Shown in pieces: positions 5,641-57,590 of a stretch of DNA of 64,000 nucleotides. Both the position numbers and the translations under genes were made by a program. Numbering within the stretch: the first letter of the stretch is position 1; each line of letters starts with the position of its first letter. Under the pieces are notes generated by a model. It saw only the letters and a list, made by a program, of their open reading frames with translations. It did no database searches and had not been told where the DNA came from. This DNA is from Cheilinus undulatus (Eukaryota > Chordata > Actinopteri > Labriformes > Labridae), in assembly GCF_018320785.1 (NCBI RefSeq), contig NC_054867.1:30011855-30075854 (forward strand), read 5' to 3'.

Positions 5641-8335
5641 ACAAGACAGATGAAAATAAACTATAAAGACGTGCACCTGCTTGTAGCCCCTTCATGGGAC
5701 TTCTTGGATATGACTAATCCTTCCTATAAAATGCACAAGCAAGTTGCCAGTTTCTTTTTTGCCCCTGCTACCATTAAGATTAATTAGTTCAGATGAAGTT
5801 TCATAAAATCCTTCTTAGCTTCTTAAATCTCTGTTAAGGCAATCATTCTGATAGGGTAATCCAAAGCTAGCTTTCAAACCAATTCACTCAATTCAGTGGG
5901 CATTTTTCAAGGGAGAAACTTTTTACAGTGAAATGAGTTCTGACACTCACAGATCATTGAGTAAAATAATCTGAAAAATTAGGGTTTGTGGGTTCATTTA
6001 TGATGCCCAAAGTGTCAGACTGGTGCTCTAAAACATCTTTACAGCCTTAATATTGCTGTAAAATGGTAAGCTATCTCATCTGATCCCTGTGTGAGCCACA
6101 GATGATAAACTTTTCAATCACACATCCTGCTAGTGAATGAATGCCTAAGTCCCCCCAATCATTCCTTTCACTTTACTGCCCTTTTTATCTACATAAGCAG
6201 CTGCTTTGAAAGTCTTCGTTTGCACCACTATTTTTTAAAACAAAATCAAGAATATTAAGGCCTTGCCAATATGCATACCAAGTATGTAGGTGGATTTGTT
6301 GCACTGGTTGATACTGCTTGCGTCTCTGCAAAAAGAAGCTCTGGCCCCTTAGTTTGAGTGAATTTAGGGTTTCAAATGGAAAACCTGAGGGGTATTTATA
6401 GGCTGTAGAGGCTGTCTGCATATTAACTGTGCCTTGCGATTACAGACAACAAACAGACATGGGGTGGCTGCTGCTATATTTATGTCACATCAAGGAAACC
6501 CTGTTGTTATGAATGCTGTTTGCCTGTGATAGGAAATAAAAAGCTTTGGATGTTCTTTCTCCTGTCTGTGGGTATTATAGTACAAATCAAGTTAAAAAGC
6601 TGTCTCTAATCTCCCTCATCAGCCATGAATGATCACCTTCAGTGAGCAACGTCTCTAAATCACACACAGGGGTGCTCCCAATTCAGCTGAACCCTACTGC
6701 CTGGTTTAGTCATGTCTAAGCGCCTACTCATTTATATATTCATCATTAATGCAATACACCCACTGTAAAATGCCGGCCCCACATTCTATAGATCACATCA
6801 CTGTTATGTTAAATTCCCGGCTGCACTCAGCAGTATATAATCAGCAGATTAGAGGAAAAGGGTGAGAACAAACAAGGAAAATGTTGAGGGAATCAGTGAG
6901 CAGAGAGAGGGAGCATCATGTACCTGAATCAGAGCATTTCCTGATGCAGCTGCCTGCTGTTTTGGTCTCCAAGGATAAAAACCTGGTGTAGCTCCCACTG
7001 CTGAGGTACACAGTGGACATCAATCAGTGGACCTCATGAATGCTGTTGAGGTACTTCCTTCTGTACAAGCTTATTTGTCTTCCCGTGCCTCCACCTGTCT
7101 TGTGCATCCTCCTTCCCTGGTTGATTTCAGCTGTGGCAGTGGGTATTTTTCTGAAACGATGCTGATGTGAATGCTCACAAAGACACAGCTCTTTCCCTGC
7201 TTTCCCCTCCACTCACACACAGTGACTGCAGAGATGGAGCAGGAGGCTGTAAGAAACAGGATCAGAGCTGTTGTACAGGGTCCTAGTGTCCTCACTGTAT
7301 TGCCTAATTTCATCTTATCGCTAACAGGCTGTCGTGTGATTTTGTAAAGGTTTTAGTTATTCTCAAAGAAAATCAATAGAGTCAGATTATGTTTATTTTC
7401 AAAGGGACATCATTTCTTCATCATTTAGGCAAAGACCAAATACATGTGGATGCTATCGCTAACAAGAGGAACCAATATTTGAGGTTCTGCTGAGCCTACT
7501 AACTTATTTGGTTTCAACATCAACTTAATGTGACTTCTAGTGTCATTCCTTTATTTTAAAACTCTGTACAGGGAGAGATTTTTTTTATAAATCATCCATT
7601 TCAGTGACTTTAAGACTAAGAGTTAGAGATGCAAGTCTTTCAATATCAAATTATTTAATTTGATTTCCATCTGGGGAACACAATTAGATAGAGAATTCAT
7701 TTTTGATTCAAAATGATCCCCAATTCAAAAAACATTTCCTGTTTCAGAGAGGTGCTTATTTCAGGATCTGCTCCTGTCTGATGTACACTGAGGACCTGTA
7801 AAGTATTAAAAAGCACAATCAAACATGTTCAAGATGATGTTTTTAAAATCATACATATGTAATGTTTTTATCAGCTGATTACAACAATGTCAACACAAAT
7901 AGATAAAACACAGACAAGTAAATGTGTAGGAGTAAGCAAGAAAAGTATCAGAAACTTGTTGGTGAAAAACTGCAATACATCTAAAGCCTTCACTGTTGAT
8001 GTTGTTGGAGAGCAGATGTTATGGTTTAACCCGTGACTGTGTTAACTGTCTGGCTTCAGCTTTCAAAGGTTGTCTGATTTACAATGTGTTAAAAAACAGA
8101 ATATTTTCTGATATGTATGAAATGAAAAGGCTAAACAAAGAGTCTCTTTAAGTTTTGATGTATGTTATCGAGATGCATTTGACGTCAAGTCACAAGGTAA
8201 CATGGTTACTCATTAAACCGCAACACCAGTCATTGATATGAAACAGACAATAGGTTATTTTTTTAATGTTTGTGTCAGACAGCAGTTTCTGGCTGTTCTG
8301 CTTATTTAACACCAGTTGGTGGTGTATGATGTGAA
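5641..8335. other. Intergenic or gpr61 first-intron DNA
   Basis: No coding region or repeat family was recognised. The 6600-7000 stretch is somewhat less AT-rich and could hold the gpr61 promoter, but no decisive core element is seen. A perfect CRE palindrome TGACGTCA is at 8180-8187. Confidence 0.35.
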
Positions 8336-16859: not shown

Positions 16860-17085
16860 TCATACTGAAATGGATTGTATCAAATTTGATCGTACCATAT
16901 TCATATCACATCGAAGCAAATAGTATCGTATTGTACCGTACCGTACTGTACCGTCTCATCTCATCTCCTTTCCTATCGCCTTATCTCGTATCGTCCCATC
17001 TCGTCTACTATCCTATCGCCTCGTCTCGACCTCTTCTCATATCGTATCGTTTCATATCGTCTCGTCTCGTATCATAATTGTATTA
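16860..17085 (+). repeat. Degenerate pentanucleotide array (TATCG/TCTCG/TACCG)
   Basis: Tandem five-base units such as TATCG, TCTCG, TACCG and TCTCA run from about 16900 to 17070, with related GTATC/CATAC words on both sides. CpG density is far above the surroundings because most units carry a CG. The long plus-strand open frame across it is a by-product of the array. Confidence 0.85.
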
Positions 17086-54197: not shown

Positions 54198-54596
54198 CTA
54201 CAAATACGTTGCTTAAATAAAACCATAGGAAGGAGTGCTTCTAGGACTCAAATAAAAAGTTTTGTTTGAGGTGCTCTTTGGAAAAGGGATTCATAAAGTT
54301 GATAACAGGAAAAACTCCAAGGCACTCTCTTAAGCATTAAAAAGCCTTTATTTTCACAGCATGGTCATATGTAGACCTTAAAAACACACTTCAACACGTT
54401 TCGGCATCAAGCCTTCATCAGGAAGTCAAACAAACAGAAGGCTGGAAGCTGTAGGTTATTTTAAACTGGTCCTGACCAACAGGAACCTGCTAACTGGGCA
54501 TAAAGGTAATGGCCTGCAGAGGGTGTCAACATATGAAACGGCCACATATAAAGAGAGTGCCTTGGAGTTTTCTTCCTATTATCTACAAATACGTTG
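54198..54596 (-). mobile_element. Penelope-like retroelement fragment flanked by a 14-bp duplication
   Basis: CTACAAATACGTTG is repeated perfectly at 54198-54211 and 54583-54596, enclosing 371 bp. The insert contains a perfect 21-base inverted repeat (54311-54331 and 54551-54571) and a hammerhead-like motif (54388-54426). Paralogous copies C and D lack the insert at the corresponding point. A variable-length target duplication with a minimal hammerhead motif fits Penelope-like elements. No reverse transcriptase remains. Confidence 0.7.
54388..54426 (-). ncRNA. Minimal type-I hammerhead ribozyme-like motif
   Basis: On the minus strand, in order: stem I strand ACUUC, core CUGAUGA, hairpin GGC/GCC with a UUGAU loop, core GAAA, a two-base-pair helix III (AC/GU), a U cleavage position, and stem I strand GAAGU, which pairs perfectly with the first. 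One extra A separates CUGAUGA from helix II, which may weaken or abolish cleavage. This arrangement with a tiny helix III is that described for hammerheads of Penelope-like elements. Activity is not shown. Confidence 0.6.
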
Positions 54597-57295: not shown

Positions 57296-57590
57296 TGGGA
57301 GGGGTCTGGCTGCAGATCCTACATTTCTGACGGCCTCTCTCACAGACCGTTCATCAGAGATGCCGTATGTCTCAGAAAGGAAGTGCTGTAATTTGCAGGT
57401 ACAACATAATTCCAGTTGAAGATTTTTTTTTAAATTCAACTTTATTCATAAAAAAGTCTGGCAGTTACATTCACTAAATAACCACACACTATGCTAGCTA
57501 TGTTGTTAGTTTCACTACATTATCCAATGTAGCTATGTTAGCTTTAGCAGCATGAGCTTTAGGAAACGTCGCTAAAGCTGATTTAGTCTG
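57296..57590 (+). mobile_element. Copy C (truncated) of the AGCTAA-array element
   Basis: Terminal sequence GGGGTCTGGCTGCAGATCCT through TTCATCAGAGATGCCGTATG, then AATTCAACTTTATTCATAAA and GTCTGGCAGTTACATTC, then a short AGCTA array (57490-57585). The 3' half is missing. Confidence 0.65.

Follow-up and report, generated by a model that had tools for sequence, protein, structure and literature searches.

Taken as a whole, a motif on the minus strand of a Cheilinus undulatus contig is best explained as a hammerhead ribozyme of a Penelope-like retroelement (PLE), preserved in a short insertion made of a pLTR plus a tail, a reading to which we assign a probability of about 0.8. The motif occupies positions 54388-54426 of the window, i.e., the whole stretch of 64,000 nucleotides that was analyzed, whose open reading frames presumably resemble vertebrate GPR61-, AMIGO- and RBM15-type genes. 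At the level of sequence comparison, our analyses demonstrate the hammerhead core, an extra A within it that is fixed in the copies seen, covariation of stem I between element families, and a PLE-type insertion. This kind of hammerhead is already known, and the placement of the motif and the fixation of the extra A may have been published as well.

All the elements of the motif that had been proposed in a preliminary description, namely the CUGAUGA and GAAA boxes and a U at the cleavage position in this order, a 5-bp stem I and a GGC/GCC helix II, were located on the minus strand. Read along that strand, this minimal type-I hammerhead motif consists of the 5' strand of stem I, ACUUC (54426-54422); the CUGAUGA box (54421-54415); one extra A (54414); the 5' strand of stem II, GGC (54413-54411), with the loop UUGAU; the 3' strand of stem II, GCC (54405-54403); the GAAA box (54402-54399); CGUGU (54398-54394); the U of the cleavage position; and the 3' strand of stem I, GAAGU (54392-54388). 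The window copy matched our motif model with 70.6 bits, being itself part of the training set of that model. With a permissive descriptor of hammerheads, allowing 0-1 extra nt and requiring at least 5, 3 and 2 bp in stems I, II and III, respectively, this motif was the single site recovered in the window; 8 of 400 dinucleotide shuffles of the window also gave at least one match, so the motif in isolation is suggestive only. A core pattern, composed after the motif had been seen, gave one match in the window and none in 100 shuffles. The covariance-model check proposed in the preliminary description turned out negative: no Rfam hammerhead model matched anywhere in the window at gathering scores, or in the region around the motif at relaxed thresholds. 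Searches for relatives produced three matches in viral contigs, judged from their context to be chance, and none in a collection of genome contigs. In the literature, five DNA or RNA words of the motif returned no title on ribozymes among the matches listed, and a text search for CUGAUGAAG together with "hammerhead" gave no match.

In canonical hammerheads helix II directly follows A9, whereas here the extra A (54414, minus strand) intervenes between the two. The preliminary description had raised the alternatives of family trait and decay, and the genome copies point clearly to the former. The core pattern with the extra A gave 50 exact matches in the 1.17-Gb genome of the same species (46 contigs), the window motif included, and its reversed control gave 0; the core without the extra A gave 0, both as exact matches with stem II as GGC/GCC and with a free middle pair (GNC/GNC), all these own-genome counts being lower bounds. 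Furthermore, among 43 rows that were retrieved for their similarity to the window rather than through the motif, and are thereby free of selection for the extra A, the position is A in 42 (window copy included) and C in one (L054); the 42 include one decayed row (L056) that is gapped at the neighboring position and whose call is ambiguous. Among distinct matches to the motif model, the position is A in 94 of 95, families B and C having been recruited by the extra-A pattern. Since nearly all the copies examined share the extra A, the alignments show it to be characteristic of the elements, fixed in the copies seen, and decay is ruled out as its source. Viral contigs offered a comparison: canonical cores were found in at least 120 stretches, and among the matches listed the middle pair of stem II is complementary in 112 of 122 rows, whereas extra-A cores were found in 21 stretches with a complementary middle pair in only 5 of 18 rows, about the level of chance. 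Many of these viral contigs (L103-L182) carry canonical hammerhead-like motifs among the matches listed, some of them several per contig (four in L170). Being fixed here and absent from the phage-type hammerheads compared, the extra A marks a lineage-specific core form, one that went undetected by the Rfam models at the window site. The available excerpts of three articles on PLE hammerheads (PMC7761336, PMC6155905, PMC6466107) hold no mention of a fixed extra A.

The examination of stem I across copies, also suggested in the preliminary description, gave a positive result, as three element families have differing stems that pair in each case: ACUUC/GAAGU in family A, to which the window copy belongs, GACC/GGUC in family B and ACAAAUGCU/AGCGUUUGU in family C. 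Over the whole structure, 83.8% of the cells of a 64-row alignment are paired, versus 73.2% after shuffling and 25-37% with the structure slid along, and two-sided changes affect 91 cells versus a shuffled mean of 40.7. All five stem I pairs counted show change on both sides, and 76.6% of the stem I cells pair, with mismatches in many family B rows. Two of five covariation measures, one on pairs changed on both sides and the other on further pair types, were no higher than in the shuffles, and independent covariation events are few, there being only about three family-level stem I sequences. In stem II, 97.9% of the cells are paired with no covariation seen, in part by design, as families B and C were searched for with GGC/GCC prescribed. 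The 64 rows were selected by a pattern demanding the extra A, hence its presence in 64/64 is by construction; loci L016, L020, L028, L034 and L082-L084 were excluded as duplicates or overlaps, as were rows with loops other than 5 nt, rows too decayed for the pattern, and identical segments (from 67 to 64 rows). The motif-model search covered 74 of 82 own-genome loci, with L016, L020, L028, L034, L067, L074 and L083 dropped as duplicates and L223 replacing L030. An unconstrained RNAalifold prediction on the same alignment did not recover the hammerhead and preferred a different 3-bp hairpin, and in the single-strand fold part of CUGAUGA is paired. To our knowledge, the combination of CUGAUGA, GAAA, an NUH triplet at H17 and a pairing stem I is known only from hammerheads; the search pattern had included the core letters but neither H17 nor stem I. 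The core, the NUH cleavage position and the covarying stem I together uphold the hammerhead reading.

By homology to hammerheads, the putative cleavage position H17 is the U at 54393 (minus strand), with the cut on its 3' side. Among the 64 rows, H17 is C in 32, U in 24, A in 8 and G in none, and U16.1 is present in 56, in agreement with the NUH cleavage triplet. The two-bp helix III of the preliminary description is present as letters, but as the stem of a monomer it would close a 2-nt loop, which is forbidden by the RNA energy model. Alignment and duplex energies favor instead one half of a palindromic stem formed between two motifs, represented in the window by ACGUGU (54394-54399, minus strand), decayed from the palindrome ACGCGU. 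The latter is found in 25 of the 64 rows, and perfect palindromes in 28; the self-duplex energy of ACGCGU is -7.5 kcal/mol versus -3.1 kcal/mol for the ACGUGU of the window copy, which, with its palindrome decayed, is probably an inactive or weak ribozyme.

The motif resides in an inserted PLE fragment of 371 bp (54212-54582, minus strand), a pLTR with a 3' tail and with an inverted arm at the 5' terminus, delimited by its target-site duplication (TSD), an empty site and the ends of family copies. The TSD is a 14-bp direct repeat, CTACAAATACGTTG, at 54198-54211 and 54583-54596, and a paralogue of the host repeat at 57304-57459, in opposite orientation, has the target once and no insert. On the minus strand at 57324-57357, this host repeat contains CTGATGA, a 4-bp hairpin (ACGG/CCGT) and CAGAAA, a hammerhead-like core by pattern only, and at 16923-17076 the window holds short overlapping tandem arrays with units of 15-40 nt. 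In minus-strand sense the insert is arranged as a 34-nt arm, a TATA-like region, the motif, AATAAA and a tail of approximately 80 nt, with a GC content of 0.39 and depletion of CpG. The arm at the element 5' end (54549-54582, plus strand) is a reverse-orientation copy of 54298-54331, perfect over 21 nt and matching at 32/36 with extension. The 3' tail (54212-54294, minus strand), delimited by family 3' ends, is possibly the start of an ORF, with an ATG at 54294 (MNPFSKEH...) that is soon stopped.

A similarity search of the same genome with window positions 54300-54520 as query returned at least 48 matched stretches including that of the window itself, the others with 78-93% identity, and several family A copies are arranged as inverted pairs. 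The 3' ends of family A copies fall at query positions 354-371 for 25 of 47 rows, among them the window copy, and at 276-292 for 14 of 47. The alignment query itself ends at 371, and for that reason the sequence past the 3' ends was compared; it is unrelated between copies, with no similar pair among the 25 and none among the 14, so both clusters represent true element ends. In the inverted pairs at L007, L014, L060 and L064, visual inspection shows matching words at the start of both outer flanks, and the tail is on one arm only. These pairs and the two 3'-end clusters correspond to the direct or inverted pLTRs with an optional tail that are expected of PLEs. Longer copies combine RT and GIY-YIG pieces as PLEs do, on weak scores: at L082, a family A motif (7435-7458) follows by 284 nt, in the same orientation, broken pieces of a PLE ORF with matches to RVT_1 (E 2.6e-5) and GIY-YIG (E 0.01), both weak and below the Pfam cut-off, and at the family C locus L041 a nearby GIY-YIG piece scored just below it (E 2.4e-4). 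The Pfam matches to RT and EN are weak, and an unrelated EPF family scores equal to or above GIY-YIG on some ORF pieces; from its motifs, we take the L082 RT piece to be a reverse transcriptase, and a PDB sequence search with an RT piece retrieved no PLE relative and one chance-level match only. As to the variable-length TSD of PLEs, that of the window measures 14 bp, and approximately 14-17 bp were seen by eye at the family B loci L013, L027 and L080; an automatic TSD search of the copies returned a clear one for the window copy only. Thus, the Penelope-type insertion claimed in the preliminary description was borne out by the 14-bp TSD, the empty paralogous target, the inverted 34-nt arm, the two 3'-end clusters and a relative near RT/GIY-YIG pieces. 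Family B also has hammerheads in inverted pLTR arms with one side tailed (L027:1435-1730, L080:130-460, L013:1155-1670). At L223:2172-2669 (G000:C8, around 47.397 Mb; also represented by L030) there is an array of eight hammerhead-model matches in the same orientation plus one in the opposite, with tandem-repeat periods of 52 and 58 nt and family B-like sequence flanking both sides; arrays of this type could release very small RNAs.

Upstream of the motif, a TATA-like TTTAAAA (54459-54465, minus strand) with a putative promoter role is present in 17 of the 27 family A rows that reach it, and a candidate transcript start zone at 54428-54438 (minus strand) coincides with a cluster of family A 5' ends. 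These lie at query positions 145-155 and amount to 12 of 27 informative ends (11 of 24 loci), 20 of the 47 family A rows having been set aside as starting at query position 60 or before; some of the 12 adjoin inverted arms instead of unique flank, and one locus contributes two of them. The clustered ends lie 27-37 nt downstream of the initial base of the TATA-like box, with the motif following 2-12 nt later, and their clustering was equalled in 0 of 20000 uniform simulations. Downstream, a poly(A) signal AATAAA (54347-54352, minus strand), 69 nt after the core start, is present in 35 of the 45 family A rows spanning it. The same word was found past the motif in family B (6 of 8 examples, 34 nt from the core start) and in family C (8 of 8, at 52-53 nt). 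The core is preceded at a distance of 30-44 nt by a TATA-like word in 3 of 4 examples from family A, 4 of 8 from B and 1 of 8 from C. By the simplest reading of these signals, the motif would belong to an R-like segment with terminal redundancy, right where the transcript begins, a placement well supported in family A, partly in B and weakly in C.

The role of hammerheads in PLEs has been termed a mystery (PMC7761336). With the motif just past the putative start and before AATAAA, and with insertion 5' ends at that start, the family offers a concrete and testable model. Pol II would initiate in a pLTR near 54438-54428 (minus strand), approximately 30 nt behind the TATA-like box, and the transcript would be polyadenylated past the AATAAA of the next pLTR in tandem; starting in one pLTR and ending in the next, the RNA would carry the ribozyme in an R-like segment at both ends. 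A single motif would be unable to close stem III, and two would pair via the palindrome ACGCGU and be cut as a dimer after H17. The family 5' ends lie at the putative start, not at the cut site, and the clustered ones still carry the motif, hence the templates of those insertions were uncut; this suggests insertion of mainly uncut RNAs. Cutting may then act on transcript processing or copy control, without being required for insertion, and the extra A would be an ancestral ribozyme feature tolerated by the core. A further reading, which we put forward tentatively and hold to be less likely than not, is that the PLE hammerheads described here form a distinct core class, with an obligatory extra A, a palindromic dimer-only stem III and the motif at the very 5' end of the redundant segment, such that two RNA ends or two RNAs must meet before cutting. 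Its odds are lowered by the weak promoter signal of family C; if true, cutting would sense tandem or high-copy transcripts instead of performing mere trimming.

Three other explanations were weighed against a PLE ribozyme. That the motif is a chance match, as the descriptor matches in 8 of 400 shuffled windows might suggest, is refuted by the 50 genome matches versus none for the reversed pattern and by the covariation of stem I, and we regard its probability as negligible. A MITE or other DNA transposon bounded by terminal inverted repeats, which would contain the motif incidentally, would account for the 21-bp perfect inverted repeat of the insertion and for the resemblance of family B copies to inverted-repeat elements. 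However, the arms are not both terminal, one of them beginning 86-99 bp inside the left target duplication; furthermore, TSDs of approximately 14-17 bp, 5'-truncated copies, two 3'-end clusters and adjacent RT/GIY-YIG pieces indicate a PLE, and the observed features fit the inverted pLTRs of PLEs as presented in PMC3846280, which makes such a transposon very improbable.

The more serious competitor, though still unlikely, would be some conserved element of PLEs at the DNA or RNA level, e.g., an RT/EN binding or template-switch hairpin, that merely resembles a hammerhead and in which the extra A abolishes catalysis. It would be in line with an extra A that is fixed and yet has no counterpart among the viral-contig hammerheads, given the 112/122 versus 5/18 complementary rows of canonical and extra-A cores, and with 5' ends located upstream of the motif, which leave no trace of cutting in most insertions. 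Against a non-catalytic element stand the co-occurrence of CUGAUGA, GAAA and NUH at H17 with a pairing stem I, an extra A already on record for the CChMVd plus-strand hammerhead (PMC3705267), and the cleavage, in the presence of protein, of a lizard PLE hammerhead (PMC11167929). The preferred reading is that of a PLE hammerhead ribozyme, whose closest counterparts are compared below with regard to form, placement and use.

Several known systems resemble this ribozyme in one or more respects. Minimal type-I hammerheads of PLEs have reportedly been described by Cervera and De la Pena in 2014 and by Lunse, Weinberg and Breaker in 2017. The CChMVd viroid, with whose plus-strand hammerhead a 2001 paper by De la Pena and Flores is said to be concerned, has its extra A between A9 and helix II, as in the window motif. 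The extra A in the core of that hammerhead (PMC3705267) belongs to a single viroid ribozyme, whereas here it is fixed across several element families. PLE minimal type-I hammerheads reside in pLTRs, have a reduced helix III and are supposed to cleave as dimers (PMC7761336, PMC6155905, PMC6466107); the window motif likewise lies in a pLTR, with a reduced helix III and a dimer reading, and so conforms to the type to which the preliminary description had likened it. In rotifer PLEs the pLTRs are inverted and a 31-bp tail is found on one of them (PMC3846280), and the inverted pairs observed here similarly have a tail on one arm and none on the other. The hammerhead of the Anolis PLE Poseidon PAc requires addition of the PLE protein for cutting, its mutants have no effect on insertion in vitro, and reverse transcription starts internally at two sites, leaving a tail of 30-40 bp (PMC11167929). 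Such an internal RT start explains the tail in copies of the window family, and both systems share a PLE hammerhead with stems I and II and uncut RNA as the main insertion substrate, as observed in vitro there and as we infer here; in contrast, the ORF of Poseidon PAc begins at stem II while the possible ORF start here lies approximately 100 nt past the cut site, and its 30-40 bp tail compares with 3'-end clusters approximately 70-90 nt apart. Finally, the hammerheads of amphibian non-LTR retrozymes, which have a very weak helix III with a palindromic loop and are active as dimers (PMC7229834), resemble the motif in the weak helix III with a palindrome and in the dimer reading, but are borne on non-autonomous tandem repeats of approximately 300 bp, unlike the PLE pLTR described here.
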